From Eubacteriales bacterium (GTDB lineage: Bacteria > Bacillota > Clostridia > Lachnospirales > Lachnospiraceae), in contig JAUNSC010000001.1 of assembly GCA_030539395.1 (NCBI GenBank), forward strand, positions 167,694 to 231,693: 64,000 nucleotides of DNA. Reading direction: 5' to 3'. How positions within the stretch are numbered: position 1 is the first letter of the stretch; each line of letters opens with the position of its first letter. The position numbers and the translations under genes were made by a program. The notes under the pieces were generated by a model, which was given only the letters and a program-made list of their open reading frames with translations, was not told the origin of the DNA and did not search any database. This document shows positions 12,018-39,099 of this stretch, piece after piece.

Positions 12018-12117
12018 TACGCAGGCTCTGTTTCCAGATATAAACAATGCCAGACAGTCAGATTTACTTTTAGTATAACAGACTACGAAAATCAAAATAT
12101 AAAGCGGAGAGATTATA

Positions 12118-12126
12118 TGTTATAAT
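12118..12126 (+). promoter_or_regulatory. Extended -10 promoter for the Nudix gene
   Basis: TGT followed by TATAAT (12121-12126) forms an extended -10 about 40 bases before the coding start. No clear -35 was seen. Confidence 0.5.
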
Positions 12127-12164
12127 CAGTGTAATAAATCCGGATTAATCAGGGGGCGGGACAA

Positions 12165-12785: not shown

Positions 12786-12811
12786 TTATTTGTATTGATT
12801 TGGCGCCCATT

Positions 12812-15169: not shown

Positions 15170-15239
15170 AAAGTCAATATGAGTAGAGAGTTATGCCAAA
15201 CTTATATGTGGGTTGCAAAAAACAAAGGAGGTAGGTTAT

Positions 15240-17596: not shown

Positions 17597-17608
17597 GGGG
17601 GAATAACT

Positions 17609-22685: not shown

Positions 22686-22717
22686 TTTTATTACTGAAAA
22701 TATTAAGGATGATTTTT

Positions 22718-23647
22718 ATGAAAACAGCTGCACTTATTGTCGCTGCAGGTATGGATAAAGGGACGGATGCCATCGGTCCTATGAGAAATCTGGGTTCCAT
22801 ATCTGTGGCACAGAGAATTATTGCTACGTACCATCAGGCCGGAATACGCAGGATTGCTATCGTGACTGGATATCAGGCAGATGAACTGGAGCGTCATCTG
22901 TCAAATAACGGGGTAGTGTTTTTGCGTAATCCGGAATATGCTGATACATTTATGTTTGATTCGGTGAAAATAGGTATTGAATATCTTAAGGATAAATGTG
23001 ACAGAGTCTTCCTCTCGCCGGTAAATATCCCGCTGTTTACCTCTGAGACAGTCAAGCAGCTGAGCGCTTGTCCTCAGTCTCTGGTCTGTCCTGTCTGTGA
23101 TGGGAAAAGCGGTCATCCGATATTAATTTCAGCTGCATTGTTTGATCAGATCCTGTCTGATTCCGGCGAGAACGGAATTCAGGGAGCGCTCTCAAGATGT
23201 AATGTGGATATGGCGATGATTCCGGTAGAGGATTCAGGCATCTTCAATGATTTCAGGGCCACCGGAAAATATAATTTGCTTTTGGAACAACACAATGCCA
23301 GGCTGGCACGTCCTGTTATTCATGTCTCTCTCGCAAGAGAGAAAATATTTTTTGATGCAAAAGTGGCTCTGCTTTTGAACCTGGTGGATGAGACAGGTTC
23401 TGTACGGACCGCGTGTCAGCGAATGCAGATATCTTATTCCGGTGGCTGGAATATGATTCGGACACTGGAATCCCAGCTTCATCATCAATTGATTGAGCGC
23501 AGTCAGGGGGGAGCCAGGGGAGGAAGAAGCAATCTGACAGAGGAGGGACGGTGGTTCATCCGAAGCTTCCAAAGATTTGAAGAGGAACTGCGTGTGCAGG
23601 CAAATATCCTTTTTGAGAACTGTTTTGGCAGTTTTTTTAATGAATAA
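22718..23647 (+). CDS. MocA-like NTP transferase fused to a C-terminal ModE-type HTH
   Basis: 309 residues from the ATG at 22718 (AAGGA 8 bases away; an ATG at 22709 is less well placed). The N-terminal half (about 1-190) is a nucleotidyltransferase fold related to MobA/MocA (AALIVAAGMDKG, VTGYQADELERHL, VFLSPVNIPLF). The glycine-rich loop lacks the usual SSRMG, so activity is uncertain. The C-terminal half (about 205-305) is a ModE-like winged helix (LLNLVDETGSVRTACQRMQI, SYSGGWNMIRTLE, GGARGGRSNLTEEG). A paralogue is encoded at 40160. A Mo-responsive regulator role is inferred. Confidence 0.85.
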   Translation: MKTAALIVAAGMDKGTDAIGPMRNLGSISVAQRIIATYHQAGIRRIAIVTGYQADELERHLSNNGVVFLRNPEYADTFMFDSVKIGIEYLKDKCDRVFLSPVNIPLFTSETVKQLSACPQSLVCPVCDGKSGHPILISAALFDQILSDSGENGIQGALSRCNVDMAMIPVEDSGIFNDFRATGKYNLLLEQHNARLARPVIHVSLAREKIFFDAKVALLLNLVDETGSVRTACQRMQISYSGGWNMIRTLESQLHHQLIERSQGGARGGRSNLTEEGRWFIRSFQRFEEELRVQANILFENCFGSFFNE

Positions 23648-24172: not shown

Positions 24173-26929
24173 ATGGTAAGAAAAACATTGGTGATCAATG
24201 GTGTTACAAGGATTCTTGTGGTAGATGAGAACGAGAGCCTTGCAACAGTGCTTCGTGAGCATCTGCTTTTGACCGGCTGTAAAATCGGATGCGGTGAGGG
24301 ACATTGCGGTGCATGTAATGTAATTATGGACGGAAAAGTTACAAGATCCTGTGTTTATAAGATGGGCAGGATCCGTGACAATGCAGAAATTACTACCATT
24401 GAGGGCATCGGAACCATTCATGACATGCATCCTCTGCAGGTTGCGTGGATGGCACATGGATGCGCACAGTGCGGATTCTGTACACCTGGCTTTATTGTTA
24501 CGGCAAAGGTATTGCTGGATAATAACCCGAGTCCGACCAGAGAGGAAGTAAGAGACTGGTTCCAGAAGAATCGTAATCTCTGCCGTTGTACCGGATATAA
24601 GCCGCTGGTGGATGCCGTTATGGATGCAGCAGCTGTCATGCGCGGTGAGATGACCAGGGAAGACTTGATTTTTAAACAGACCGGTGACAGTATTGTCGGA
24701 ACAAAATATGTTCGTCCGTCGGCTCCGCAGAAGGTGACAGGTACCTGGGACTTCGGTGCAGATGATGCATTAAAGATGCCGGAAGGAACACTTCGTCTGG
24801 CATTGACGCAGGCAAAAGTTTCTCATGCAAATATCATTTCCATTGATACGTCAGAGGCGGAAAAGATGCCGGGTGTATTTAAGGTTATTACCGGAAAAGA
24901 CATTATTGCAGCAGGCGGAAAGAATAAGATTAATGGTCTTGTCATGCTGCCGCTGAATAACAAGTGTGACGGTTGGGATCGTCCGGTACTCTGCGATGAA
25001 AAGATTTTCCAGTTCGGCGATGCTATTGCCATTGTTGCGGCAGATACTGAGAAACATGCGAGAGAAGCAGCAGATGCTGTTAAGGTTGAACTGGAGGTTC
25101 TGCCTGCATATATGAGCGCACCGGAGGCAATGGCTGAGGATGCAATTGAGATTCATCCTGGTACACCGAATGCATATTATGAAACAAGCTGCATTAAGGG
25201 ACCGGATTTTGATTTTGACAGTGCACCGAATGTAGTTGAGATTGAGAGCTATTGTTCACGTCAGCCGCATCTGCATCTGGAACCTGACTGTGGATATGCT
25301 TATATTGATGAAGACGGTATGGTTACCGTTCATTCCAAATCCATCGGTATTCATTTGCATATGCCGATGATCGCAGATGGTATTGGTGTCCCAATGGAGA
25401 AATTACGTCTTGTTCAGAACCATGCAGGAGGAACTTTCGGTTACAAGTTCTCACCTACCAACGAAGCAATTCTCGGCGCGGCTGCAAAGATCTGTGAACG
25501 TCCTGTATCGCTGGTATTTAATCAGTTCCAGAATATTACTTATACCGGAAAACGTTCTCCGGCGTTCATGCATATTAAGCTTGCGGCTGATGAGAAGGGC
25601 AAACTTCTGGCTCTCTGGGGTGACAATTATGTGGATCATGGTCCGTACTCTGAGTTTGGCGATCTTCTGACCCATCGTCTCAGCCAGTTTGTTGGTGCCG
25701 GATATGGTATTCCGACGATCCGTAATAAGAATACTACGGTATTTACCAATCATGCATGGGGATCTGCATTCCGTGCTTACGGTTCTCCGCAGTCCTTCAT
25801 GGGCTCTGAGATTGCCATTGATGTGCTGGCAGCAAAAATGGGCATCGATCCCTTTGATATCCGTGAAATGAACTGCTATAAAGAATCTGAGGGAACAACG
25901 ATTCCCACAGGCTATGCTCCTGATGTATACTGTGAAGAGGAAATGTATCGTCGGGCACGTCCGCTGTATGAGGCTGCAAAGAAGAGAGTGGCAGAGAAAA
26001 ATGCGGCATCTGACGGCCGTTACAAATATGGTATCGGTGTATCAAACGGCGTTTATGGCTGCGGTCTTGATGGTGTTGACTCCTCACAGGCTTATGCAGA
26101 GCTGAATCCGGACGGTACGGTTACGATTTATGTATCCTGGGAAGATCATGGTCAGGGAGCAGATATGGGAGCTCTTGCTTCTGCACATGAGACACTGAGG
26201 CAGGCAGGCTTTAAACCGGAAGATGTGAAGCTGGTTATGAATGACACAAAATATACTCCGAACTCCGGCCCGGCAGGCGGTTCACGTTCTCAGGTAATGT
26301 CAGGTAATGCATGCCGTCTTGCAGCAGAGAACCTGTTGGCAAATATGAAGAAAGAAGACGGTACTTATCGTACATATGAAGAGATGAAACAGGAAGGTAT
26401 TGAGACAAAGGTTCTCGGTCAGTGGGTATGCTCTTATTGTGCGGATCATCCGGTGGATCAGGCTACAGCCCAGGGTGAACCGTTTGCAACCTATATGTAC
26501 ACCATATTCCTTCCGGAGGTATGTGTTGATACCCAGACCGGCAAAGTTACTGTTGAGAAGTTTACGGTAGTAACTGATGTAGGAACTATTATGAATAAGC
26601 TTCTGGTAGACGGCAACTTCTACGGAGGTCTTGCACAGGGTATTGGTCTGGCATTGACAGAGGATTTCGAAGATCTGACAAAACACACCACCCTTGCAAA
26701 ATGCGGTATTCCTTATCCCAAGGATGTTCCGGATGATATTGAGCTTCATTATGTTGAGACTCCTCGTCCAAACGGACCTTACGGCGCAGCAGGCTGCGGC
26801 GAGGCACCTCTGGATGCTCCGCATCCGGCTATCCTGAATGCGATCTACAATGCGACAGGAGCGCGTATCACTCGAATTCCGGCGCTTCCTGAAGTAGTTC
26901 TGGCAGCATTGAAAGAGTTAGAGAACTAA
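24173..26929 (+). CDS. mop: Mop-type aldehyde oxidoreductase (Mo, two [2Fe-2S])
   Basis: 918 residues, close to the 907 of Desulfovibrio gigas Mop, and alike from end to end. The plant-type [2Fe-2S] domain has GCKIGCGEGHCGAC. The second [2Fe-2S] domain has CAQCGFCTPGF and RNLCRCTGYKPLVDAVMDAA. The Mo domains contain VKVELEVLPAYMS, EIHPGTPNAYYE, AGGTFGYKFSPT, NHAWGSAFRAYGSPQSFMGS, EDHGQGADMGA and the catalytic Glu in GCGEAPLDAPHP. There is no FAD domain. D. gigas Mop uses molybdopterin cytosine dinucleotide with a sulfido ligand and oxidises aldehydes to acids. The nearby XdhC, cysteine desulfurase and NTP transferases fit those needs. Physiological substrate unknown. Confidence 0.92.
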   Translation: MVRKTLVINGVTRILVVDENESLATVLREHLLLTGCKIGCGEGHCGACNVIMDGKVTRSCVYKMGRIRDNAEITTIEGIGTIHDMHPLQVAWMAHGCAQCGFCTPGFIVTAKVLLDNNPSPTREEVRDWFQKNRNLCRCTGYKPLVDAVMDAAAVMRGEMTREDLIFKQTGDSIVGTKYVRPSAPQKVTGTWDFGADDALKMPEGTLRLALTQAKVSHANIISIDTSEAEKMPGVFKVITGKDIIAAGGKNKINGLVMLPLNNKCDGWDRPVLCDEKIFQFGDAIAIVAADTEKHAREAADAVKVELEVLPAYMSAPEAMAEDAIEIHPGTPNAYYETSCIKGPDFDFDSAPNVVEIESYCSRQPHLHLEPDCGYAYIDEDGMVTVHSKSIGIHLHMPMIADGIGVPMEKLRLVQNHAGGTFGYKFSPTNEAILGAAAKICERPVSLVFNQFQNITYTGKRSPAFMHIKLAADEKGKLLALWGDNYVDHGPYSEFGDLLTHRLSQFVGAGYGIPTIRNKNTTVFTNHAWGSAFRAYGSPQSFMGSEIAIDVLAAKMGIDPFDIREMNCYKESEGTTIPTGYAPDVYCEEEMYRRARPLYEAAKKRVAEKNAASDGRYKYGIGVSNGVYGCGLDGVDSSQAYAELNPDGTVTIYVSWEDHGQGADMGALASAHETLRQAGFKPEDVKLVMNDTKYTPNSGPAGGSRSQVMSGNACRLAAENLLANMKKEDGTYRTYEEMKQEGIETKVLGQWVCSYCADHPVDQATAQGEPFATYMYTIFLPEVCVDTQTGKVTVEKFTVVTDVGTIMNKLLVDGNFYGGLAQGIGLALTEDFEDLTKHTTLAKCGIPYPKDVPDDIELHYVETPRPNGPYGAAGCGEAPLDAPHPAILNAIYNATGARITRIPALPEVVLAALKELEN

Positions 26930-26981
26930 AATATTCCGCCCTTCTGTAAAGAAGGGCAGAAATTACAGTAAAAGTTGTAGA

Positions 26982-27018
26982 AATCGTAAGATGTCAGGTG
27001 CGGCATCTTACGATTTTT
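26982..27018 (+). terminator. Terminator after the aldehyde oxidoreductase gene
   Basis: AATCGTAAGATG (26982-26993) pairs with CATCTTACGATT (27004-27015), followed by TTTTTT. A smaller hairpin GCCCTTCT/AGAAGGGC lies just before it (26938-26957). Confidence 0.88.
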
Positions 27019-27027
27019 TGATAATAA

Positions 27028-27036
27028 TGCTATAAT
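27028..27036 (+). promoter_or_regulatory. Extended -10 promoter of the redox/radical SAM operon
   Basis: TGC followed by TATAAT at 27031-27036. The -35 region (about 27008-27013) falls in the preceding terminator stem and is poor. Confidence 0.5.
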
Positions 27037-27120
27037 TGAAACATGATTGGATTATCAATTTGGCACCGAATATATAAATGTAATTTTAAAGAAAAACAGG
27101 ACGAGAGGGGAGGCGGTATA

Positions 27121-29430
27121 ATGGATTTTGAAGAGCGTTCCACCCATGTTTACAGACAGAAGCAAATGATGTCCAGGGAAGAATTGGTGGCAAGAGAAAG
27201 TCTGTGCGTTTATGAGCAGCCAGCGTATTGTGTTGCAGCCTGTCCCCTGAAGCTGGATACGAAGGCGCTGATTAGAGCCATAGCTTCAGCGGATTTTAAT
27301 CAGGCACGGCAGTTATATGAGAAGATAACCATGTTTCCCCATATCCTGTCTGCAGGCTGTGATGCTCCCTGTCAGGAAAAATGCAAACTGGGAGAAGTGG
27401 GAGATGGCGTTGCCGTCCGGCAGCTGGAATATGCAGCTGTAAATTACGGGGAGAAATCCAAAGCAAAAGGTATGTTCAGGTTTAAAAAGAAACAGACAGT
27501 ATGCATACTGGGCAGTGACTTGTTTACATTGTTTCTTGTCGGGGAGCTTGCTCAGAAAAATTATCCGCTGACGGTTTTCTGCAGTGAGTCATCTGCAGAA
27601 AAATTTTTTCTTTCCTGCATCAGGAGCCAGCTGGAAGGCGGGGATTCGCGAAAGACGTTTCTTCTGGAAGATTTAAAGGCATTGAAGAATCTGGATATTC
27701 GGTTTGAGTGCGGTATGGAATTTACAGCGCCGGAGGCAGAAAAACTGCGTGACCGATATGATGTGACATGTATTTCTCTGACGCTTGCCGGAGAATTATT
27801 TGGTGAGGTATCCCATGATGAACAGCTGATGATGTGTTTTGAAAAAAATATGGTTATGGGAGGAGAACAGTTCTCTGTCCGGAGAGCAGCTTTTGCAGCA
27901 AAAAAAGCAGCTCTTACTGTTGACCGTCTGGCGCAGAAACTGTCGCCTGATAACAGCCGCGGCGAAGAAGGAAGCTGTGAGACGAAGCTGTTCACAAATC
28001 TGGAGGATGCAAAGGAGCTGCGGAGAGTTCCTGTCGGGGAAGAAGGATACAGCCGGGAGGAGGCTGTGTGCGAAGCGGGGAGATGCATTCAGTGTCATTG
28101 TGATGAATGTATTAAAGGCTGTGCTTATCTGCAGCATTACAAGAAGTTTCCCAGGGTATTGACCAGAGAAATTTACAATAATGTGAGTATCATTATGGGA
28201 GATCATATGATGAATAAGCCCATTAATGCCTGTTCGCTTTGCGGGCAGTGTACAGTAACCTGCCCAAATGGTTACGATATGGCTCAAATTTGTCATGCTG
28301 CACGGGAAAATATGGTTTTCACCGGTAAGATGCCGCTGGCGCCACATGAATTCGCTCTGCACGATATGCTGTTTTCGAATAATGAGGCATTTCTGTGCAA
28401 AAAACAGCCCGGATTTGAAACCTGCAGATATGTATTTTTCCCGGGATGTCAGGCGGCTGCAGTCTCTCCGGAAACTGTGAAGGCCGCATATCTGGATTTG
28501 TGTTCCCGGCTGAAGGGCGGCGTGGCCCTGATGCTGGGCTGCTGCGGTGCAATCTGTGACTGGGCCGGCAGATATGAGATGTATGATGATACAAAGAAGT
28601 TTATAGAGGAAAAACTGAAAGAGCTTGGGAATCCACAGATAATAGCGGCCTGTCCGATGTGTAAAAAAGAATTGTCGACACATGTAGAAGCGGATATTAT
28701 GGGTATGTGGGATATTCTGCTGGAAATTGGTCTTCCCGGGAAACACATAAAGTACGATTCTTCCTATGCATTGCATGACAGCTGCGGGGCCAGAGGAGAT
28801 GCGCACACCCAGGAGGCAATACGCAAGCTGTTAAATCAATCAGGCTGCAAAGTGATTGATACGGAATATTCGGGTAATCGCTCGCCCTGCTGCGGTTATG
28901 GGGGCCTGACCTCCTATGCAAACCGGGAGGTGGCAAAAAAGATGACAGAAAAATGTCTGGAGCGCTCCCAGCTTCCGTATATTTCTTATTGTATGGCCTG
29001 CAGAGATCGATTCGCACGGGAAGGCCGGGAGTCGGTACATGTTTTAGAATTGATTTATGGCATTGTACCCGGTTCACCGCCGGATATCAGTGAGAAGAGA
29101 TATAACCGGCTGAAGCTGAAAAATCATTTGCTGGAATTACTCTGGGGAGAGGAGATAAAACCTGTGGAGTTAGGATTTCAATTAGAGTATACAAAGGATG
29201 CTTTGGAGATGATGGATGACCGCATGATTCTGAAAAGTGATGTGGAAGCGGTCATGAAGAGCTGTCATGAGACAGGGGAAGCACTTCTGGATATGGAGAC
29301 AGGTCTGCTGGTATCCAGAGCGCGGCTTGGAAATGTGACCTTTTGGGTGAAATATACCAGGACGGATAACGGTTATCTGGTTCATCGCGCATATAGTCAC
29401 CGAATGAATGTAGAAAAGAGAATGGGGTAA
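27121..29430 (+). CDS. Dicluster-binding redox protein with degenerate flavin domain and HdrD-like CCG domains
   Basis: 769 residues from the ATG at 27121 after GGGGAGGCGG. The N-terminal domain resembles the Fe-S domain of glutamate synthase small subunit/DPD (CVAACPLKLD, CDAPCQEKCKLG). A Rossmann-like section (about 120-320) reads VCILGSDLF where an FAD protein needs GxGxxG, so flavin binding is doubtful. Fe-S ligands follow in CIQCHCDECIKGC and ACSLCGQCTVTCP. Two cysteine-rich CCG modules come next (FFPGCQ/GCCGAICDW/CPMC and HDSCG/SPCCGYGG/CMAC), like heterodisulfide reductase HdrD. I recall such proteins being annotated beside Mop-type enzymes. Role as electron acceptor for the aldehyde oxidoreductase is inferred. 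Confidence 0.75.
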   Translation: MDFEERSTHVYRQKQMMSREELVARESLCVYEQPAYCVAACPLKLDTKALIRAIASADFNQARQLYEKITMFPHILSAGCDAPCQEKCKLGEVGDGVAVRQLEYAAVNYGEKSKAKGMFRFKKKQTVCILGSDLFTLFLVGELAQKNYPLTVFCSESSAEKFFLSCIRSQLEGGDSRKTFLLEDLKALKNLDIRFECGMEFTAPEAEKLRDRYDVTCISLTLAGELFGEVSHDEQLMMCFEKNMVMGGEQFSVRRAAFAAKKAALTVDRLAQKLSPDNSRGEEGSCETKLFTNLEDAKELRRVPVGEEGYSREEAVCEAGRCIQCHCDECIKGCAYLQHYKKFPRVLTREIYNNVSIIMGDHMMNKPINACSLCGQCTVTCPNGYDMAQICHAARENMVFTGKMPLAPHEFALHDMLFSNNEAFLCKKQPGFETCRYVFFPGCQAAAVSPETVKAAYLDLCSRLKGGVALMLGCCGAICDWAGRYEMYDDTKKFIEEKLKELGNPQIIAACPMCKKELSTHVEADIMGMWDILLEIGLPGKHIKYDSSYALHDSCGARGDAHTQEAIRKLLNQSGCKVIDTEYSGNRSPCCGYGGLTSYANREVAKKMTEKCLERSQLPYISYCMACRDRFAREGRESVHVLELIYGIVPGSPPDISEKRYNRLKLKNHLLELLWGEEIKPVELGFQLEYTKDALEMMDDRMILKSDVEAVMKSCHETGEALLDMETGLLVSRARLGNVTFWVKYTRTDNGYLVHRAYSHRMNVEKRMG

Positions 29431-29433
29431 GAA

Positions 29434-29658
29434 ATGGCGGTATCAGAGAAAAACTATTATACAATTGATCCGGAAGGCAAACTGATCTGTATGAAGTGTC
29501 AGGTGCCTCTGGTAAAAGGAAAAGCGAAATTTATGTATCTGGACAATGGCTTTCCGGTGGAACTGCCGGTTTGTCCGGTGTGCGGATTTGTTTATGTTCC
29601 GGAAGAGTTGGCGCTGGGTAAGGTGCTGGCTGTGGAAAAAGCACTGGAGGACAAATAA
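29434..29658 (+). CDS. DVU_1557-like small redox protein
   Basis: 74 residues with two CxxC pairs, CMKCQVPL near the start and CPVCGFVYVPEELA later, i.e. a zinc-ribbon or rubredoxin-like fold. It lies between the dicluster protein and a methyltransferase with 0-3 base gaps. I place it in the family I know from Desulfovibrio (DVU_1557), whose function is not established. Confidence 0.75.
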   Translation: MAVSEKNYYTIDPEGKLICMKCQVPLVKGKAKFMYLDNGFPVELPVCPVCGFVYVPEELALGKVLAVEKALEDK

Positions 29659-30201
29659 ATGAACCGGCATCCGGGCGGAGAAGCCCGAACCAGACAACTG
29701 CTGGAGAAGGCGGGATTTGATTCCGGCGCAAGAATTCTTGATATGGGAGCAGGTGACGGAAGTGCGGTTCGTTTTATGCGTGAGCAGGGACTGCGGGCGG
29801 AAGGCATCGATCTGTGTCCTCAGGGGCCCTGGGTAGAGAAAGGTGACTTCCTTAGAACCGGTTTTCCGGCAGAGGCATTTGACGGAATTCTGAGCCAGTG
29901 TTCCTTTTACGTCAGCGGAGATGTGGAGGCTGCTTTTAAAGAAAGCGTCAGACTTTTGAAAACCGGCGGCAAGCTTTTGTTTTCAGATGTATGGTTTTCC
30001 GGAGAGGATGAACTGCGGAAAATTCTGGATAAGAATGGCTTATGTCTCCTTTTTCTTGAAGACGAGACTTCTGCGTGGAAGGAATATTATATAGAGGCGA
30101 TCTGGAACGGAACAATGGAGGCGGCACCTGCGGGAGCAGGAAAATGCAGGTATTATTCATTGACAGCGGTAAAGCAGAGCGGCCAGGAAATGTTGGTGTA
30201 A
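29659..30201 (+). CDS. trsM: SAM-dependent methyltransferase (DVU_1556/TrsM-like)
   Basis: 180 residues with a class I methyltransferase fold: motif I ILDMGAGDGSAVRFM, AEGIDLCPQG, the later FDGILSQCSFYV and LKTGGKLLFSDVWF. The substrate is unknown. The start abuts the previous stop with no gap. It is embedded in a conserved-looking set with a radical SAM protein, a C-GCAxxG-C-C protein and a CoA-ligase-like protein. The symbol is recalled from annotation practice, not from experiment. Confidence 0.72.
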   Translation: MNRHPGGEARTRQLLEKAGFDSGARILDMGAGDGSAVRFMREQGLRAEGIDLCPQGPWVEKGDFLRTGFPAEAFDGILSQCSFYVSGDVEAAFKESVRLLKTGGKLLFSDVWFSGEDELRKILDKNGLCLLFLEDETSAWKEYYIEAIWNGTMEAAPAGAGKCRYYSLTAVKQSGQEMLV

Positions 30202-30222
30202 GATAAGGAAAGGAATACAGAT

Positions 30223-30648
30223 ATGGATATTTTTGACAGAATTATGGAGCTTTCTGCTTCAGGTTATTACTGTTCTCAGATTTTGGCAATTTTGCTTCTT
30301 GAAATGACGGAGGAGGAAAATGACGGTTTAGTAAAAGCAATGGGAGGACTTTGCGGCGGAGTGGGTTATTCCAGTGGCTGCTGCGGCTGCATGACCGGAG
30401 GCTGCTGCCTGATTTCCTATTTTACAGGTAAGGGCGGTCAGAATGAAATGGATCTTGAGGAACACAAACCGGCAATGAAAGCATTTGTCGACTGGTTTAC
30501 GGAAGAAATGCAGATGGAGCACGGGGGAATTGAGTGCAGTGATATTATTCGGGGGAACCCTGCAAAGCGGGTGCAGTACTGTCCGCAGATTATTGCCGCC
30601 TCCTTTGAAAAATGTATGGAAATCCTGGAGGAGGAAGGAATCATATGA
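30223..30648 (+). CDS. C-GCAxxG-C-C family protein (DVU_1555-like)
   Basis: 141 residues. The Cys pattern is characteristic: YYCSQILAILLL near the N-terminus, then GGLCGGVGYSSGCCGCMTGGCC, and a C-terminal YCPQII. This family is thought to bind a metal or Fe-S cluster and is common in redox operons of anaerobes. The classic GCAxxG Cys (GA here) reads GGLCGG, which is slightly atypical. Its stop overlaps the start of the radical SAM gene by 4 bases (ATGA). Confidence 0.75.
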   Translation: MDIFDRIMELSASGYYCSQILAILLLEMTEEENDGLVKAMGGLCGGVGYSSGCCGCMTGGCCLISYFTGKGGQNEMDLEEHKPAMKAFVDWFTEEMQMEHGGIECSDIIRGNPAKRVQYCPQIIAASFEKCMEILEEEGII

Positions 30649-31982
30649 GGATTTTGATTGATAAGACCCGGAGCGTTTGCCCGGTATGTCTGAAAACCAT
30701 TGAGGCAGAGCGGATACTGGACGATGATGACAAAATCTATATGCAGAAAAAATGTGAGGAGCATGGCAGTTTTCGGACACTGATCTGGGAGGATAATCTG
30801 ACCAGCTATTACCGATGGGGTATGCAGAAGAAAAAGCAGGAAACGCCGGTAAATCCGGAAAAGACACTGCAAAAGGGATGTCCCGGCGACTGTGGACTGT
30901 GCACAGAACATCTCAGTAAGGGCTGCTGTATGCTGCTGGAACTGACCAATCGCTGCAATCTGCGGTGTCCGGTCTGCTTTGCATCTGCGGGAGAAAAATC
31001 GCTCAAAGATCTGTCTCTGGAAGAAATCGGACAGCAGTATGATTTTCTTATGAATCATGGAGGTCCGTTTAATATTCAGCTCTCCGGAGGAGAACCGACA
31101 ATGCGTGATGATCTGCCTGAAATTATCCGTATGGGGAGAGAAAAAGGGTTCACCTTTTTTCAGTTAAATACTAACGGAATCCGACTGGCCAGGGAGGAGG
31201 CCTATGCGGCGGAATTGAAAGCGGCGGGGCTTAATACCGTATTTCTTCAGTTTGACGGTGTTACAGATGAGGTATATCAGATCCTGAGAGGACAGGCTTT
31301 GATGGAGGAAAAACAAAGTGCAATCTGCAATTGCGGTGCAGCCGGCCTGGGTGTAGTTCTGGTTCCGGTGATTGCGCCGGGGATTAACGAAAACCAGGTG
31401 GGAGATATCCTGAAATTTGCAATGGAACGAATGCCGGAGGTTCGGGGAGTACATTTTCAGCCAATCAGCTATTTTGGAAGATGTTCTTTAGACCCTCAGG
31501 GAGATCGGATTACCATACCCAGAATGCTGCGCTTGATTGAGGAACAGACAGGCGGGCAAATGAAGGCAGAGGACTTTGCCGGCGGAGGTGCCGAGAATCC
31601 GTACTGTTCTTTCCATGCCAGTTATATGCAGGGAGAGAGCGGAGCATTCAGGGCTTTGAGGAAAAAGAATACCTGCTGTTGCTGTACCGGCTCTGACGAT
31701 TCCAGAGAGTTTGTGGCGAAGCAGTGGAGCGGTGAGGAAACGCGGTTTGAGATGCCGGAGGACGGCCCCCTTTCTGATACTTCTGAGTTAGATGCTTTTT
31801 TGGAACAGGCAAGAAAAAGGACATTTGCCGTGTCCGGTATGATTTTTCAGGATGCCTGTAATTTTGATATAGACAGAATCCGCCGCTGCTATATTTGTGA
31901 GATGGATACAGATTATGGCATGGTACCATTTTGTGCCTATAACTTAACAAACAGAAAGGGAGAATATCTTTACAGGAAATAA
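30645..31982 (+). CDS. trsS: Radical SAM protein (TrsS-like)
   Basis: 445 residues from the ATG at 30645 (GGAGGAGGA upstream). The N-terminal metal-binding section, SVCPVCLKTI then CEEHG and CPGDCGLCTEH, resembles that of MJ0619/Tes-type radical SAM proteins. The radical SAM cluster motif is CNLRCPVC, followed by SGGEP. A Cys-rich segment (TCCCCTG) and CYICEMD near the C-terminus suggest further clusters. Some relatives are selenoproteins, but no in-frame TGA is seen here. Such enzymes alkylate or methylate unreactive carbons. The actual reaction in this operon is unknown. Confidence 0.75.
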   Translation: MRILIDKTRSVCPVCLKTIEAERILDDDDKIYMQKKCEEHGSFRTLIWEDNLTSYYRWGMQKKKQETPVNPEKTLQKGCPGDCGLCTEHLSKGCCMLLELTNRCNLRCPVCFASAGEKSLKDLSLEEIGQQYDFLMNHGGPFNIQLSGGEPTMRDDLPEIIRMGREKGFTFFQLNTNGIRLAREEAYAAELKAAGLNTVFLQFDGVTDEVYQILRGQALMEEKQSAICNCGAAGLGVVLVPVIAPGINENQVGDILKFAMERMPEVRGVHFQPISYFGRCSLDPQGDRITIPRMLRLIEEQTGGQMKAEDFAGGGAENPYCSFHASYMQGESGAFRALRKKNTCCCCTGSDDSREFVAKQWSGEETRFEMPEDGPLSDTSELDAFLEQARKRTFAVSGMIFQDACNFDIDRIRRCYICEMDTDYGMVPFCAYNLTNRKGEYLYRK

Positions 31983-31984
31983 AG

Positions 31985-33223
31985 ATGAAAAGAAGCAGAC
32001 TGGATGATATGATTATGAAACTGGAAGGAATCGATAATCTGGGGCGCAGGGAAATTGAGGAACTGCAGTTTCGCAAATTGAATGAATTGCTGCACAGAGA
32101 GCATGAGAGGGGAGGATTCTATTCGGGGCTTCCCAGGAAACTGGATTCTCTCGAAGAGCTGTCCGCGTTGCCTTTTACTACGGCGGAAGATCTGCAGCAG
32201 CACAGCGGTCGTATGCTGCTGTGTTCGCAGAATGAGGTGCAGAGAGTCATCACAGATCGGACAAGCGGAACCACCGGTCACCCTAAACGACTTTTCTATA
32301 CCAGAGAAGATCTGGAACATACGGTGCTTTTATTTATGGCAGGACTTGGCGAATTCATTTACCGGGGAAGCAAAACTATGATATGTATGCCCTTTTCAGG
32401 GCCATACGGCTTAGGTGAGCTGATTGCGGAGGCTGTGGAGAGGCTGGGAGCGGAAGCACTGCGCATCGGTCCGTTTCTCACATATTCAGAGTATGAAGAG
32501 GTAATCCGCAGGGAGCAGCCGGATACTTTTGTGGGAATGCCGGTACAGCTGCTTTCTATTTTGCGCTTCTGCAAAAAAGGCAGCCTGCAGCGCGCATTGG
32601 TCAGCGGTGATGCCTGCCCGGAAACTGTAATGGCTCAGTGTGAGTCTTTACTGGGGACAAAGCTGTTTCCCCATTACGGCTCCAGGGAAATGGCATTGGG
32701 CGGCGCAGTTACCTGTCCGGCACACAGGGGGATGCATTTGCGGGAAAATCATGTGATTGCGGAAATTATAGATGAACGGGGAAAGGTACTTCCTGATGGG
32801 CAGTATGGGGAACTTGTGATCACAACGATTGGGATGGCTGCACAGCCCTTAATCCGCTATCGGACCGGAGACTTTACCAGAATTCTCGCAGATCCGTGTC
32901 CCTGCGGAAGTAAAGTAATCCGCTTAGATCAGGTGCGGCGAAAAGAGGAAGACGAAATACCTGTTATAGAGGATCTGGATAATATTCTCTTTGGATTTCC
33001 GGAGGTGGTGGACTATTATGCAGGTTATGAGCCTTCCGGTCTGCATCTGGAGCTGCTCATCCGGAAGGAATGTCAGGAAGAAGTCATTTGTCAGATGGTC
33101 AGAGAAAAATACAGAGATCTGAATGTGACAATAAATGCAAGGCAATGTACCGGTGAATTCAGATCTCTGTATAAGGCAAAGCGCTCTGTGGAGAGGCCGA
33201 TTACTTCAGAAGAAATGGTTTGA
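31985..33223 (+). CDS. AMP-dependent CoA-ligase-like protein (DVU_1553-like)
   Basis: 412 residues, similar in size and layout to phenylacetate-CoA ligases (PaaK). It has TDRTSGTTGHPKRLFYTREDL as the P-loop region, PHYGSREMALGG as the adenylate-binding motif, LIRYRTGDFTRI, and a C-terminal small domain. Such enzymes activate an acid as an acyl-adenylate, then thioester. Acid activation next to an enzyme that makes acids from aldehydes is suggestive, but a role in cofactor or protein modification is equally possible. It ends the operon, and its 3' end overlaps the convergent cysteine desulfurase gene by 23 bases. Confidence 0.75.
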   Translation: MKRSRLDDMIMKLEGIDNLGRREIEELQFRKLNELLHREHERGGFYSGLPRKLDSLEELSALPFTTAEDLQQHSGRMLLCSQNEVQRVITDRTSGTTGHPKRLFYTREDLEHTVLLFMAGLGEFIYRGSKTMICMPFSGPYGLGELIAEAVERLGAEALRIGPFLTYSEYEEVIRREQPDTFVGMPVQLLSILRFCKKGSLQRALVSGDACPETVMAQCESLLGTKLFPHYGSREMALGGAVTCPAHRGMHLRENHVIAEIIDERGKVLPDGQYGELVITTIGMAAQPLIRYRTGDFTRILADPCPCGSKVIRLDQVRRKEEDEIPVIEDLDNILFGFPEVVDYYAGYEPSGLHLELLIRKECQEEVICQMVREKYRDLNVTINARQCTGEFRSLYKAKRSVERPITSEEMV

Positions 33224-34391
33224 GTCCTTCACATTTTTCCTTCCAAAGGGGAGAATGGTCTCTGAGGGAAGCCACTGCCTGGGTTACGGCCCCAATTACT
33301 TTTTCTATTTCTTCTATGGTGTTGTCTGCACACAGTGAGATGCGAAGAGAGCCGCGGGCCAGCTCATGGGGAAGGCCGATGGCCCGGAGTACATGGCTGG
33401 GATCTGCCGAGGAGGCAGTACAGGCGGAACCGGCCGAGGCACAGATTCCCTGCTGATCCAGAGCAAGGAGCAGACGCTCTCCCTCGATACCTTCAAAGCA
33501 TATATTTATATTTCCCGGCAGCCTGCAGTCCGGGCTTCCGTTTAAAGCGGAATGAGGAATTTGCAGCAGGCCGTCTAAAAGCCTGGAACGAAGGGAGGAT
33601 ACTTTGGAGGAATTTTCTTCCATGTGAAGGCAGGATTCCTTCAGGGCAGCAGCCATTCCGAGAATGGCAGGTACATTTTCTGTGCCGGCTCTCCTGCCGC
33701 CTTCCTGACCGCCGCCTTCGATGAGACTGGCTACCGGAATTCCCTTCTGCGCATATAAAACGCCGATTCCCTTTGGACCGTGGAATTTGTGGGCAGAGAG
33801 TGAAAGCATCTGAATTTCCTGCTGCTTCACATGAATCGGAAGATGGCCCACTGCCTGAACGGCATCCGTGTGGAAGAGGACCTGACGCCTGGCGCAGAGA
33901 CGGCCGATTTCCGGAACAGGGAGAATGGTACCGATTTCATTATTGGCATACATGACAGTGACCAGAGCTGTATCCGGCCGGATGGCATCGGCCACCTGCT
34001 TTGGAGTTATCTCACCAAAGGAATTTACCGGGAGATATTCTATGGAAAAACCTTCTTTCTGAAGTCTTTGCAGCGTATGAAGGACAGCATGATGCTCAAT
34101 GGGAGTGGACAGGATATGTTTTTTTCCCTTTCTGGCCCCGATCCTGGCAGCAGTAAGAATTGCCTGGTTGTCCGCTTCACTGCCACCGGAGGTGAAAATA
34201 ATCTCCTTTGGATGACAGCCGAGGCAGGCAGCAATCTGTGTTCTGGCTTCATAGACGGCATCGGCAGCCTGCTGGCCGATGGAATGCAGACTGGAAGGGT
34301 TGCCGTAAATGCGGTCAAAGCAGGTGAGCATTGCCTGGATTGCGGCAGGAGACATTTTTGTGGTTGCGGCATTATCTACATAAATTTTCAT
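33201..34391 (-). CDS. Cysteine desulfurase (NifS/IscS-like)
   Basis: 396 residues from the ATG at 34391 (GGAGG 7 bases away; an in-frame GTG at 34397 is too close). PLP-dependent fold type I: N-terminal YVDNAATTKMS, TSGGSEADNQAIL, HTDAVQAVGH, the PLP lysine in SLSAHKFHGPKGIGV, and the active Cys loop CASAGSACTASSADPSHVL. Known relatives (NifS4 with XdhC in Rhodobacter) supply sulfur to the terminal Mo ligand of hydroxylases. With an XdhC and a Mop-type enzyme nearby, the same role is likely. It is transcribed against the radical SAM operon. Confidence 0.9.
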   Translation of the reverse strand: MKIYVDNAATTKMSPAAIQAMLTCFDRIYGNPSSLHSIGQQAADAVYEARTQIAACLGCHPKEIIFTSGGSEADNQAILTAARIGARKGKKHILSTPIEHHAVLHTLQRLQKEGFSIEYLPVNSFGEITPKQVADAIRPDTALVTVMYANNEIGTILPVPEIGRLCARRQVLFHTDAVQAVGHLPIHVKQQEIQMLSLSAHKFHGPKGIGVLYAQKGIPVASLIEGGGQEGGRRAGTENVPAILGMAAALKESCLHMEENSSKVSSLRSRLLDGLLQIPHSALNGSPDCRLPGNINICFEGIEGERLLLALDQQGICASAGSACTASSADPSHVLRAIGLPHELARGSLRISLCADNTIEEIEKVIGAVTQAVASLRDHSPLWKEKCEGLKPFLLK

Positions 34392-34571
34392 TTTCACACC
34401 TCCATTCGAATGGGAGAGCAGGGACGGTAACTTATAAAAACGTTCTGAATTATTATAAAAATTATAGCAATTATTATTGAAATAATCAATAAAGAGCAGC
34501 AGTACAACAGGATTATTGTCTTATTGAGAGATCTCTTTAAAAGAATTCAGGTGGATGAGAAAGGAGCTTTT

Positions 34572-35777
34572 TTGAATATAATATCAGAAACAGGAGCAAA
34601 ATTTGGAGCGGGACTGAAAACGGGAGCGGTGATTACAGCTGCAGGACTTTCTTCCAGAATGAGTGATTTTAAACCGCTGCTGCCTTACAAAGATACTACG
34701 ATGGTAAGATTTCTGGTAAGTCTCCTGCGTGATGCAGGGGCGGCGCCTGTTGTTGTGGTAGTTGGCTATCGTGGGAATGAACTGCGGAAACATCTGGAAG
34801 ACATGGATGTTCTGCTGGTTGAGAATCCGCAGTACGCAGAGACAGAGATGTTTGATTCTATTAAGCTGGGGCTGCAGAGACTGGCAGGGCATTGTGATCG
34901 CGCAGCATTTGTGCCGGTGGATGTGCCGGATCTGTCTCCTGCGCTGCTGCAGCGCGTATTTCACACTGAGGGAAGTATTGTCCGTCCTGTGTATCATGGG
35001 AGACCAGGGCATCCGGTGGTGATGGATGCAGCGCTGATTCCTGAAGTCTGCGTATATACAGGAGACAGGGGATTTCGCGGTGCGCTGGAGTCGCTTGGCT
35101 GCGGTATTACTGAAGTGGAGGCAGAAAATGATGGTATTTATAATGATATTGATACCATTGAGGATTATCAAAGCCTGATAGGAAAAGAAAGAACAAGGAC
35201 TCTTTATATTGTGAGGCATGGGGCCGTGGAATTTCCGGGAGGAGAAAAACTGTGTATCGGCAGAACAGATTTGCCGCTTTCGAAGACCGGGCGCAGACAG
35301 GCATTGCAGCTGCAAGAATATTTTCATAATAAGGGAATTGAAGCTGTATATGCCAGTCCTCTGAGACGTGCCCGGGAAACGGCTCAGCTTATAGCAGGGG
35401 GAGATATTGCTGTTCGCATCCGGGATGATCTGACGGAGATGTATATGGGAAGCTGGGAAAATCAGCCGCTTGCCAGCCTTCAGAAGAAATTAGAGGACGA
35501 GGCACCCGGCGGGGAAACGCGATATAGTGCGCTGCTGCGTTTTTCGGAGGCAGTAAATCAGATTATTGCAGAAACCAGCGGGGATATTGTAATTGTTTCC
35601 CATGCGGGGGTGATATGCGCTTACCTTTCAGAGCGGATGAACACTCCGTTGGAAACGTCACGGGGACTTCGTCAGCCTTACTGCGGGCTTAACATTTTTG
35701 AAGTACGCATCGGAAGCAGTCCGAAACTTCGGGAATATGGAGTGAGAGCAAATCAGGTACCGGAAGAAACGTCATGA
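34572..35777 (+). CDS. NTP transferase-histidine phosphatase fusion (DVU_1551-like)
   Basis: 401 residues from a TTG at 34572 with AAAGGAG 5 bases away; an earlier TTG at 34524 has no site. N-terminal half (about 15-200): MocA/MobA-type nucleotidyltransferase, with AVITAAGLSSRMSDFKPLL and a metal-site DVPDLSP. C-terminal half (about 208-395): histidine phosphatase, LYIVRHGAVEFPG, then YASPLRRARETAQ and VSHAGVICAY. The first half would attach CMP to molybdopterin for the Mop-type enzyme. The phosphatase could act on a phosphorylated cofactor intermediate; that is inference. Its intact SSRM loop contrasts with the two ModE fusions. Confidence 0.8.
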   Translation: MNIISETGAKFGAGLKTGAVITAAGLSSRMSDFKPLLPYKDTTMVRFLVSLLRDAGAAPVVVVVGYRGNELRKHLEDMDVLLVENPQYAETEMFDSIKLGLQRLAGHCDRAAFVPVDVPDLSPALLQRVFHTEGSIVRPVYHGRPGHPVVMDAALIPEVCVYTGDRGFRGALESLGCGITEVEAENDGIYNDIDTIEDYQSLIGKERTRTLYIVRHGAVEFPGGEKLCIGRTDLPLSKTGRRQALQLQEYFHNKGIEAVYASPLRRARETAQLIAGGDIAVRIRDDLTEMYMGSWENQPLASLQKKLEDEAPGGETRYSALLRFSEAVNQIIAETSGDIVIVSHAGVICAYLSERMNTPLETSRGLRQPYCGLNIFEVRIGSSPKLREYGVRANQVPEETS

Positions 35778-36752: not shown

Positions 36753-36972
36753 AAAACACCTCAAAATGAATGGAAACAGTTGATTTAATTGGTAAAAAGT
36801 GATATAGTTAGGTGAAAATATATAATCAGAATATTATATTTTGCACAAAAAATCAATAATAATCAGACTTTTCAATCGAAAATGCTGTGAGGTGTGAAGG
36901 ACTGCAGGCAAAGATATAGTAATGAAGCTGGCCCGCGGACAATGTGATGATATAGTCTGGGGAGGACACGAA

Positions 36973-37992
36973 ATGAAGTTAATCAGAACAGAAGATGCGG
37001 TAGGACAAGTATTATGCCATGATATTACACAGATTATCAGAGGAGTGACAAAGGATGCAGTATTCCGCAAGGGTCATGTAGTACGGGAGGAAGATATTCC
37101 GGTTCTCTTATCAGTGGGGAAGGAAAATCTGTATGTGTGGGAATGTGATGAGAATATGCTGCATGAAAATGATGCGGCAGAGATACTGAGGGAAATATGT
37201 CAGGGCGAGAACATGCATCCGTCCGAGGTGAAGGAAGGAAAGATCGAATTAATCTCAGATATCGACGGTTTGCTGAAAATTGACACGGAGAAAATGAACC
37301 GCATTAATTCTCTGGGAGAGATTATGATCGCCAGCCGGCACGGGAATTTTCCGGTACATAAGGGTGATAAGCTTTGCGGAACAAGAGTAATACCGTTGGT
37401 TATTAAAAAAGAAAAAATGGAAGAGGCGGTACGGATAGCAGGGAAAACACCCTTGTTCCGAATTCTGCCCTATCAGAAAAAGAAGGTGGGTATTGTCACC
37501 ACAGGCAGTGAGGTATATAAGCATCGGATCGAAGATACTTTTACACCGGTGGTGGCTGCCAGGGTGCAGGAGTACGGAGCGGAAATTGGAGGTCACGAGA
37601 TTTGCGATGACAGTCATGAGATGATTACCGGGGCGATCCGGAAACTTTTAGCAGCAGGATGCAATATGATTCTGTGCACTGGCGGCATGAGTGTGGATCC
37701 GGATGATCGGACACCATTGGCCATTAAAAATGCAGGCGTGGAGGTTATAACGTATGGCGCACCTGTGTTGCCGGGAGCGATGCTTATGCTCTCATATTAC
37801 AACGGGGATATTCCGGTGATTGGCCTTCCGGGCTGCGTAATGTATGCAAAAAGGACTGTATTTGATCTTGTTTTACCGCGCATTATGGCGGGTGAGAAGA
37901 TCACCGCAGAAGAAATCAGCAGACTGGGAGAAGGCGGTCTTTGCCTGTCATGTCCGGTTTGTCACTTCCCAAACTGCGGTTTTGGAAAGTAG
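36973..37992 (+). CDS. MoeA/MogA-like molybdopterin-binding protein, paralogue A
   Basis: 339 residues from the ATG at 36973 after GGGGAGG. N-terminal section: EDAVGQVLCHDITQIIRG and FRKGHVV, as in MoeA-related proteins. A MoaB/MogA-type MPT-binding domain occupies about 175-310 (VGIVTTGSEVY, LCTGGMSVDPDDRTP, VLPGAMLML, GLPGCVMYA). The C-terminus carries four cysteines, CLSCPVC then PNCGFGK. It is shorter than MoeA and is clearly homologous along its length to the gene at 39119; the two flank XdhC. A role in delivering or finishing Moco for the hydroxylase is inferred. Confidence 0.82.
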   Translation: MKLIRTEDAVGQVLCHDITQIIRGVTKDAVFRKGHVVREEDIPVLLSVGKENLYVWECDENMLHENDAAEILREICQGENMHPSEVKEGKIELISDIDGLLKIDTEKMNRINSLGEIMIASRHGNFPVHKGDKLCGTRVIPLVIKKEKMEEAVRIAGKTPLFRILPYQKKKVGIVTTGSEVYKHRIEDTFTPVVAARVQEYGAEIGGHEICDDSHEMITGAIRKLLAAGCNMILCTGGMSVDPDDRTPLAIKNAGVEVITYGAPVLPGAMLMLSYYNGDIPVIGLPGCVMYAKRTVFDLVLPRIMAGEKITAEEISRLGEGGLCLSCPVCHFPNCGFGK

Positions 37993-38040
37993 CATAATTT
38001 GAGCAATATAAAATGTAAATTACAGGGGCAGGGAATCAGG

Positions 38041-39099
38041 ATGGAGATGATAGAGTTATATGAGCGAATCCGCGAATTCGGAAGCAGTCGCTTAAGTATG
38101 GTTCTTACAGCGATTGACCCGGAGCTGCTGGGAGAAAAGGCGCTGTTTTCAGAAGGAGAAATACTCTGGGAGGCTTTAGACGGCGGTTTTTTTTCACAAA
38201 ATGTCATAGAAGCAGCAGCACTGCATGAAACTGGTGTATTTTGTATAGGCGGCAAACGGGTTTTCTGTGAATTAACAGGACATGGTAAACGGATGGTAAT
38301 CTGCGGCGGCGGTCATGTGGCCATCCCTGTTATCAAAATTGCCAGGATAGTTGGGTTTGAAGTGACGGTGATTGAAGACCGGGCACAGTTTGCACAGAAC
38401 GCGCATGAGGCCGGGGCAGATCATGTGATCTGTAATGCATATGATGCTGCGTTGGATGAGATTGAAGGAGATTCGGATACATATTTTGTAATTGTTACAC
38501 GGGGCCACAGGCATGATCAGGCATGTCTGGAAAAAATTGCATTCAAGCCCCATGCTTATATTGGTATGATCGGCAGTCGCAGACGTACCAGAATGGTGAT
38601 GGATCTGCTGGCGGAGCGGGGAGTATCCAGAGAAGTGTTGGACAGAGTATACACTCCTATCGGCATGGATATCGGCTCAGAGACTCCGGAGGAGATTGCT
38701 GTTGCCGTTCTGGCCGAAGTGATTCAAGTGAAGAATCGAAGTCAAAGGGCGGGAGGGTATCCCAAAGAAATTCTGAGGGCAATACTGGGAGATGAACCAC
38801 TTCCGGGGGTTGTACCTGGACCAGAAAAGTCCAGGGCATTGGCTACCATTGTGAATCGGGATGGCTCTGCTCCAAGAGAAGCAGGTTCTAAGATGGTGGT
38901 TTATGAAGATGGAACAATTGCGGGCACTGTCGGCGGCGGACTTTCCGAGGCTGAAACTATCTGCAAGGCTGTTGCTATGCTTCAGGCGGGGGAGAAGAGA
39001 CCATTTTTGCTCCATTCTGATATGACGAATGAGAAAGCGGAGGAAGAAGGCATGGTCTGCGGCGGAATCATGGATATCATCATAGAACCGGTATATTAA
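38041..39099 (+). CDS. xdhC: XdhC/CoxI-family Moco maturation protein, rearranged domain order
   Basis: 352 residues from the ATG at 38041; an earlier TTG at 37999 is not supported. An N-terminal part (about 1-80) precedes the Rossmann-like XdhC_C domain (VICGGGHVAIPVIKIA, DRAQFA, VIVTRGHRHDQACLE, YIGMIGSRRR, PIGMDIGSETPEEIAV). The CoxI domain is at the C-terminus (RALATIVNRDGSAPREAGSK, GTVGGGLSEAE, GMVCGGIMDI). The usual XdhC order is the reverse. XdhC binds sulfurated Moco and loads it into xanthine-dehydrogenase-family enzymes, with sulfur from a cysteine desulfurase. The client here should be the Mop-type enzyme at 24173. Confidence 0.88.
   Translation: MEMIELYERIREFGSSRLSMVLTAIDPELLGEKALFSEGEILWEALDGGFFSQNVIEAAALHETGVFCIGGKRVFCELTGHGKRMVICGGGHVAIPVIKIARIVGFEVTVIEDRAQFAQNAHEAGADHVICNAYDAALDEIEGDSDTYFVIVTRGHRHDQACLEKIAFKPHAYIGMIGSRRRTRMVMDLLAERGVSREVLDRVYTPIGMDIGSETPEEIAVAVLAEVIQVKNRSQRAGGYPKEILRAILGDEPLPGVVPGPEKSRALATIVNRDGSAPREAGSKMVVYEDGTIAGTVGGGLSEAETICKAVAMLQAGEKRPFLLHSDMTNEKAEEEGMVCGGIMDIIIEPVY

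Follow-up and report, generated by a model that had tools for sequence, protein, structure and literature searches.

The 64,000-nt window analysed here, taken from contig JAUNSC010000001.1 of Eubacteriales bacterium (Lachnospiraceae), a gut-type anaerobe, and lending its own coordinates to all features below, carries at 24173-33223 the gene of a Mop-type aldehyde oxidoreductase (Mop), followed by genes for a dicluster protein (Dicl), a mini-protein with two CxxC motifs, a methyltransferase, a C-GCAxxG-C-C protein, the radical S-adenosylmethionine (SAM) protein TrsS and a PaaK-like ligase. This cassette is a member of a catalogued but functionally unexplained system. Five features can be read from the sequences: the gene set itself, its linkage, the conservation of CCG motifs in Dicl and of tetraether synthase (Tes) ligands in TrsS, an invariant Lys at the C-terminus of the mini-protein, and the presence of the same cassette around the aldehyde oxidoreductase (AOR) gene of Desulfovibrio gigas. 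On balance, the Trs genes probably serve a thiol/disulfide relay rather than the molybdenum cofactor (Moco). The whole explanation, in which Trs is a maturation module for this relay and Mop thereby has a private electron outlet, is put forward tentatively, and the full chemistry proposed for a lysine arm on the mini-protein is doubtful.

A gene set linked to Mop-type enzymes

Seven genes are confirmed at 24173-33223, as originally predicted. Six of them pass the threshold that NCBI sets for a curated family; only the methyltransferase scores too low for its own.

24173..26929, + strand: Mop-type aldehyde oxidoreductase of the xanthine oxidase family, with two [2Fe-2S] and the Moco domains (NF045668 1531.6 bits, cut-off 1100)
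26979..27018, + strand: intrinsic-terminator-like hairpin between Mop and the downstream operon (-21.8 kcal/mol, z -6.65, matched by none of 200 shuffles)
27043..29430, + strand: open reading frame (ORF) of Dicl, likely start 27121 by inspection (NF045663 800.5 bits, cut-off 530)
29434..29658, + strand: DVU_1557-family mini-protein (DUF7479), two CxxC, C-terminus -LEDK (NF045645 94.3 bits, cut-off 60)
29659..30201, + strand: class I SAM methyltransferase, DVU_1556-like (NF045667 110.1 bits, below the cut-off of 155; Methyltransf_23/11)
30223..30648, + strand: C-GCAxxG-C-C protein, DVU_1555 family (NF045669 154.6 bits, cut-off 103)
30612 or 30645..31982, + strand: TrsS, radical SAM protein of Tes architecture, Cys form (NF045646 606.3 bits, cut-off 490)
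31985..33223, + strand: PaaK-like AMP-forming ligase, DVU_1553 family (NF045666 338.5 bits, cut-off 300; PDB 4r1l)

The methyltransferase is regarded as a divergent relative of the DVU_1556 family because it holds the same operon position, despite its score. A gap-free operon following Mop had been proposed, and from Dicl to the ligase this holds (intergenic distances of 3, 0 and 21 nt, then a 4-nt overlap of the C-GCAxxG-C-C and TrsS genes, then 2 nt); Mop itself, however, is split off by the hairpin at 26979-27018, and since so strong a terminator stands between the two, Mop is probably a separate transcription unit in this genome. The hairpin was found by folding and sequence inspection, and is not listed by the pattern scan.

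The families of the set (NF045645, NF045646 and NF045663-NF045669) have neighbouring accessions, and several are named after DVU_1551-1557 of D. vulgaris, so that the NCBI curators appear to treat them as one set. The original prediction had recognised this D. vulgaris set, and the family names agree, although the name Trs, which it had attached to two members, was found for TrsS alone; the name TrsS reportedly comes from Haft and Tolstoy (mSystems, 2025). Calling the system undescribed was too strong, as every member has a curated and named family. No functional study of DVU_1551-1558 was found in the literature searched, to which the naming paper of TrsS does not belong. Papers are cited here by PMC accession: TrsS appears in a table row of a 2026 selenoproteome review (PMC13188914), which cites a 2025 paper, DVU1558 occurs once in PMC3114432, and DVU_1559 is placed under 'ethanol metabolism' in PMC10920352 and also appears in a table of PMC11784015, while the string 'DVU155' is absent from the main text of a D. 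vulgaris fitness paper (PMC10102598).

Co-occurrence was counted over curated cut-offs in 293 genomes of the window's class (Clostridia), and in 197 genomes of the phylum to which genome G293, with the Desulfobulbaceae locus L136, belongs (G-numbers denote genomes and L-numbers loci). In the class sample TrsS occurs in 14 genomes and Mop in the identical 14 (Fisher p 3e-24, kinship ignored), and 15 genomes, the 14 and G088, carry the mini-protein as well as the ligase; a mini-protein match in G225 (22 bits) falls below cut-off. The G088 locus (L255) holds a Mop truncated by the contig end, Dicl, a mini-protein ending LEDK, the methyltransferase, the C-GCAxxG-C-C protein and the ligase, an operon complete but for TrsS, and a search of the genome for a second TrsS found none. 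G088 was nevertheless set aside as an example of Mop without TrsS, a short TrsS remnant occupying the expected place. This remnant (L255, 6600-6900) lies amid intact C-GCAxxG-C-C and ligase genes, and could reflect natural loss or an assembly error.

In the phylum sample, Mop is over cut-off in 17 of the 197 genomes, and all 17 also have TrsS, so that the profiling against Mop-type enzymes called for originally bears out the link. TrsS is over cut-off in 23 genomes, including G403, whose partial Mop (890 bits) was counted as Mop-positive for the Fisher values of this sample, which likewise ignore kinship. Wide occurrence of the operon genes without any Mop-type enzyme had been named as what would refute the idea, and this is seen in part: five of the 23 have no Mop at E <= 1e-200, and none beside TrsS either, and some cassettes lie near an enzyme of the dimethyl sulfoxide (DMSO) reductase family.

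A contig scan yielded at least 551 TrsS relatives, of which the best 80 loci were kept. Among the 39 with a full upstream flank, Dicl is present in 39, Mop and the mini-protein in 38 each, and the C-GCAxxG-C-C protein, methyltransferase and ligase in 37 each. All 18 loci without a Mop match were traced into their genomes, where Mop was found over cut-off in 11, as fragments in three and not at all in four, the contig of these last four ending upstream of TrsS before Mop would be reached. The set occurs in contigs titled gut Bacillota, Chloroflexota, Spirochaetota, Fusobacteriota and Proteobacteria. Its co-occurrence is not due to chance.

The D. gigas enzyme, Mop-less cassettes and the molybdenum cofactor

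The Mop of the window matches PDB 1dgj and 1sij end to end, and is an ortholog of the AORs of D. desulfuricans and D. gigas. A protein search found a Mop 100% identical to 1SIJ over 206 and a further 285 residues, inside a complete Trs cassette, and by this identity the genome would be that of D. gigas, whose AOR (1VLB/1SIJ) thus belongs to the same cassette as the window enzyme. The order there is MoeA-like, Mop, nitroreductase, Dicl, mini-protein, methyltransferase, C-GCAxxG-C-C, TrsS, ligase, XdhC and a weak MocA-like match, with no match to NifS in the 19.9 kb read. The nitroreductase gene between Mop and Dicl sets this locus apart from the window, which has the terminator hairpin there and a convergent NifS gene.

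In crystals of D. gigas AOR, active as well as inactive, the cofactor is plain pyranopterin cytidine dinucleotide; the ligands are oxo and hydroxo, and a sulfido ligand is absent (PMC3877041). As a Mop identical to this crystallised enzyme with its ordinary cofactor sits in a complete cassette, a lasting change of the Mop molybdenum centre by Trs is unlikely; a labile modification, lost during purification, is possible. The physiological electron acceptor of the enzyme is only proposed (PMC3877041, PMC10223205).

Do the Trs genes always accompany Mop? Cassettes without an adjacent Mop were found at L207-L211, L216, L218, L231-L235 and L242-L246, where for L231-L235 and L242-L245 the absence applies to the fetched stretch (with L243-L245 close to contig ends), L246 repeats the G443 locus of L211, L236 likewise repeats the G381 locus of L208, and the genome of L216 (G096) has Mop elsewhere. 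At L207-L210 and L218 neither Mop nor an FdhA-like gene is found in the stretch read. Among the branches listed of a TrsS tree (FastTree, with a Tes-like outgroup), L207-L211, L216, L218, L231-L233 and L246 form a clade beside the Mop-linked clade, while an FdhA-like group (L234, L235 and L242, with relatives L219-L224), which has an FdhA-like gene just upstream, falls inside the latter. Because of this nesting, it looks as if an FdhA-like enzyme had replaced Mop in that group, an apparent partner swap. Pfam identifies the FdhA-like protein of L234 as a molybdopterin oxidoreductase (DMSO-reductase family; TIGR01591 364.7 bits, cut-off 666), with FmdE as its neighbour, FmdE being recognised in the rest of the group by eye only.

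The Dicl of Mop-less cassettes is variable. In several it comprises just the HdrD-like core, and a small protein of its own carries the C-terminal domain; in some only this C-terminal domain is seen, fused ahead of the mini-protein (L234, L242-L245), which thus remains C-terminal; Dicl is long in L231 and L233, and that of L233 retains a full pyridine-nucleotide domain. The Mop-less cassette of L216 also includes (4418-5827) a pyridine-nucleotide disulfide oxidoreductase (Pyr_redox_2 and dimerisation domain). Those of L231-L233 and L246 adjoin genes for a corrinoid protein and a RACo activator (by Pfam in L233, by eye in the others), as well as TRAP-transporter-like genes (by eye), a hint of methyl or aromatic metabolism.

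These loci bear on the reading in which Trs modifies the Mop molybdenum cofactor or a metal ligand. The frequent presence near the cassette of Moco-related genes (MocA-like, XdhC, MoeA-like) would fit it, as would the group beside a molybdopterin enzyme of a different family, Moco being then the shared feature there. The ordinary cytidine dinucleotide cofactor of D. gigas AOR from a full cassette and the cassettes with neither Mop nor an FdhA-like gene nearby both disfavour it, and we consider it very unlikely. The original prediction of a cofactor or metal ligand, made either for the Mop enzyme or for the redox chain that takes its electrons, is thus weakened in its first half and favoured in its second.

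Conversely, Mop-like genes exist without the cassette. Nine divergent ones were found in the phylum sample (740-809 bits), eight of which (L247-L254) lack mini-protein, TrsS, methyltransferase, C-GCAxxG-C-C and ligase genes alike in their vicinity; in three such genomes (G360, G480, G459) a full Mop and TrsS occur elsewhere. A second Mop in G079 (L217) is adjoined by Dicl and a mini-protein only, TrsS lying elsewhere in that genome. Both findings favour the relay explanation set out below. Other cases weigh against it: three of the eight loci (L249, L252, L253) include a protein with partial similarity to Dicl, the ninth divergent gene (G492, L213) adjoins a Trs cassette, and a second Mop of G389, over cut-off (L256), has no relay or cassette genes adjacent. 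Two of the 14 genomes of the class sample weigh against it as well. In G210 the TrsS over cut-off groups with those of the Mop-free clade, and another contig carries a TrsS fragment of 216 aa next to a ligase; in G159 some 25 kb separate TrsS from Mop, and this TrsS belongs to neither of the two main clades. At L213 (7477-8295), where no C-GCAxxG-C-C gene was seen, a DUF5714 protein directly follows TrsS and weakly matches the C-GCAxxG-C-C Pfam family (E 0.0012, below cut-off), a hint of a stand-in.

A proposed thiol/disulfide relay and its alternatives

Dicl combines a GltD-like Fer4_20 domain with a degenerate Rossmann part, a [4Fe-4S] dicluster, two CCG (HdrB/HdrD-type) motifs and a C-terminal domain of about 90 aa (Pfam matches: Fer4_20, Fer4_17, CCG). 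Among 72 distinct full-length sequences (650-900 aa and >300 bits only), the cysteines of both CCG motifs are complete in all 72. The broken flavin motif reported earlier is confirmed for the window protein, although 38 of the 72 keep GxGxx[G/A], so that its loss appears limited to some lineages. Sequence searches for a solved relative gave nothing significant, either for the Dicl C-terminal domain (best E 0.091) or for the mini-protein (best E 0.029).

The four cysteines of the mini-protein (two CxxC, forming a ribbon) are invariant in 54 of 54 sequences. Its tail was counted in 134 rows, entries without a stop codon being excluded, reduced to 114 after removal of duplicates: Lys is the last residue in 112 of these and within the last three in all 114, and 107 end in -EDK, with synonymously varying codons (AAA 68, AAG 39). 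Of six other cassette families, Mop has a terminal Lys in 64 of 139 sequences; in the remaining five, no single last residue exceeds a quarter, and a final Lys is rarer than in Mop. To our knowledge this tail has not been described, the paper naming TrsS lying outside that knowledge; the -EDK end may resemble lipoyl motifs.

A short protein with an invariant tail, encoded with a radical SAM protein and a methyltransferase and co-occurring with an oxidoreductase, would also suit a system in which the mini-protein tail is the precursor from which Trs makes a redox cofactor, diffusible or derived from a peptide (as with pyrroloquinoline quinone or mycofactocin), the Dicl module using this cofactor as electron acceptor; the second Mop-Dicl-mini-protein unit of G079, whose TrsS is elsewhere, could be accommodated as well. 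We find this improbable, given that neither Pfam nor NCBIfam identifies a peptidase among the cassette genes of the window, that the mini-protein keeps its four ribbon cysteines, and that the three mini-protein copies of G079 (one at C1:1753170) fit a working part rather than a shared precursor.

TrsS had been called MJ0619-like; its next-best family is Tes (NF045702, 360 bits), and its profile matches the Tes structure PDB 7tol with E 1.2e-125, in two stretches. The mapped Tes (MJ0619, PDB 7tol/7tom) ligands, namely those of the rubredoxin site, the N-terminal cluster and the radical SAM cluster, as well as the labile Met of the C-terminal cluster, correspond to residues invariant in 89 of 89 TrsS; the positions of the N-cluster His and the labile Met were taken from the alignment, and the mapped set does not extend to the Cys ligands of the C-terminal cluster. 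In a wider set, these sites are invariant in the Mop-linked clade (125 sequences) but for one gap at the Met and at the two last Cys sites (124), there are 0 to 4 departures or gaps per site in the Mop-free clade (23), and the C-terminal sites align poorly in the Tes-like outgroup (9). Because the mapped ligands are kept, TrsS may work like Tes, yet it is not classed as Tes, since its score is under the Tes cut-off (450). The gene neighbours of the two also differ, and a Cys at position 326, numbered on the window TrsS, is found in 146 of 148 TrsS rows (2 gaps) and in one of nine Tes-like outgroup rows. The window ORF has no in-frame TGA; as selenocysteine is optional in NF045646, membership stands. 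A selenocysteine form of TrsS was rejected, the sole TGA-flagged match over cut-off (G137:C203, class sample) being an ordinary stop codon.

This closeness to tetraether synthase could point to an alkyl coupling in which Trs makes a membrane-spanning or cross-linked lipid, with aldehyde precursors as substrates of Mop. Such a role must be judged extremely unlikely: Tyr459 of Tes is not kept in the TrsS profile, the stretch of TrsS that does not align with Tes carries a CC pair in most sequences, no cassette family of the window is a lipid enzyme by name, and Dicl and the mini-protein would be left unexplained.

Of the remaining proteins, the C-GCAxxG-C-C protein keeps C17, C54, C105 and C120 in 75 of 75 sequences, and the methyltransferase, ligase and a phosphatase are tied together by fusions, methyltransferase to ligase in L131 and L135 and ligase to phosphatase in L130 (Sporomusa acidovorans, 11341-13296). 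A fusion of mini-protein and methyltransferase in L127/L138 was rejected, the frames overlapping. The CobC-like histidine phosphatase domain joined to the ligase in L130 is found in the window fused to a MocA-type transferase.

The ligase-methyltransferase fusion, PaaK as the nearest solved ligase and the catabolic-looking islands of some Mop-free cassettes (TRAP transporter, acyl-coenzyme A, corrinoid and RACo genes, several by eye only) lend some plausibility to a substrate pathway, in which the genes act one after another on a single small molecule: Mop would make a specific acid, the ligase activate it to acyl-coenzyme A or acyl-AMP, and further changes come from TrsS and the methyltransferase, leaving Dicl and the mini-proteins to handle electrons only. 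Set against this are the conservation of the set across gut Bacillota and the other groups named above, the invariant mini-protein C-terminus, which it does not explain, and the fact that no constant transporter or degradative gene stood out in the loci (by reading, with no systematic test); it appears rather unlikely.

The relay is favoured over Moco because a D. gigas Mop with an ordinary cofactor lies in the cassette, and because of the CCG motifs, the mini-protein Lys and the Tes ligands; the linkage of TrsS and Mop, the enzyme fusions and the precedent given below also speak for it. In this scheme, whose reactions, acyl arm and arm site we infer, Mop would convert an aldehyde into an acid and pass the electrons through its [2Fe-2S] clusters to Dicl, whose Fer4_20 and dicluster domains would form an iron-sulfur wire to the two HdrB-type CCG sites, of the disulfide-reducing kind. 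The partner of these sites would most likely be the mini-protein, and TrsS, the methyltransferase, the C-GCAxxG-C-C protein and the ligase would ready this relay rather than Moco. The ligase would turn a carboxylic acid into an acyl-AMP and place the acyl group onto the C-terminal Lys of the mini-protein, and TrsS, as a relative of Tes, which captures a carbon radical on a cluster sulfide, would then form a C-S (or C-C) bond on the acyl arm, giving a lipoyl-like thiol arm oxidised and reduced by Dicl. That such an arm, built by ligase and TrsS, is a new protein-borne redox device, the disulfide substrate of the Dicl that drains Mop, D. gigas enzyme included, is unlikely as a complete statement. 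In Tes itself, an intermediate with an S-C bond on the C-terminal cluster is described (PMC9433317).

The closest working precedent is the sHdr-LbpA system, in which a dedicated ligase, sLpl(AB), and two radical SAM enzymes, LipS1/LipS2, build a thiol arm on a Lys for an Hdr-like complex (PMC10332631). Both systems encode together an Hdr-type CCG protein, a small carrier or carrier candidate, an AMP-forming ligase and radical SAM enzymes. The likeness is one of working alone; the carrier candidate here is a CxxC mini-protein with a C-terminal Lys, and the electron source is Mop. By family and structure searches, no homolog of LipS1/LipS2 or LipA, nor of Lpl/LipB, is in the cassette, where the radical SAM protein is Tes-like.

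Several points weigh against the relay. The ligase is PaaK-like and not LplA/LplB-like, no octanoyl source or transferase was seen, and NifS is found in only 15 of the 80 loci (directly upstream of TrsS in 13, gap 31-482 nt). The product of Tes, the nearest relative of TrsS, is a C-C bond, and Tes remains active without its labile Met (M439A; PMC9433317). In vitro, D. gigas AOR passes electrons to flavodoxin (PMC3877041, PMC10223205), so that Dicl is only a candidate for its partner. The -EDK end is missing from seven of the 114 mini-proteins; five of these, including the two that end AKME and GKLQ, come from Mop-free cassettes. The C-terminal Lys could also be a docking tail. The methyltransferase, the C-GCAxxG-C-C protein and the phosphatase are left unaccounted for.

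Neighbouring genes and significance of the cassette

Downstream of the ligase, three further genes of the window resemble those found around other cassettes.

33201..34397, - strand: NifS/IscS-like cysteine desulfurase, convergent (NF002806 316.1 bits, cut-off 304; TIGR03402 514.9, just under 530.75)
34524..35777, + strand: MocA-like nucleoside triphosphate (NTP) transferase fused to a CobC-like histidine phosphatase (NTPtran_DVU1551 166.4, cut-off 315, and TIGR03310 128.9, cut-off 186, both below; His_Phos_1 and NTP_transf_3 exceed cut-off)
37999..39099, + strand: XdhC-family protein, like an aldehyde oxidoreductase maturation factor (NF045664 264.7 bits, below the cut-off of 350)

Judged by its genes and the families they belong to, the window is typical of the Trs-linked set of NCBIfam; it differs in that its methyltransferase, MocA-like and XdhC proteins score under the family cut-offs, MocA is fused to the phosphatase, NifS is convergent and Mop is split off by the terminator.

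The XdhC gene is flanked by paired molybdopterin-binding (MoeA/MogA-like) proteins at 36922-37992 and 39119-40144. Two proteins (22709-23647 and 40160-41110) each join a MocA-like transferase to a ModE-type DNA-binding domain, possibly combining cofactor synthesis and regulation in one chain, and a NuoE-NuoF-FdhA set like an NADH-linked formate dehydrogenase, plus FdhD, lies within the same Moco gene region (15213-20317 and 43955-44809). Further away, a condensation-domain protein, a carrier-protein-sized ORF and an AMP-binding enzyme stand in a row at 49128-52404, perhaps a small cluster like those for nonribosomal peptide synthesis, and at 14309-15091 two short ORFs resemble transketolase pieces by eye (no Pfam match at 1e-5), perhaps a decayed gene.

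Until xanthine oxidase itself was solved, the AOR of D. gigas was its structural model (PMC10223205). The gene of this AOR belongs to a fixed cassette of iron-sulfur protein, radical SAM protein, ligase and mini-protein. The main value of the analysis lies in this link with D. gigas, the Mop-less cassettes, the apparent partner swap and the invariant C-terminal Lys, which together turn a vague idea of a cofactor into a specific test. If the proposal is true, the Lys arm of the mini-protein would be a new protein-bound cofactor.

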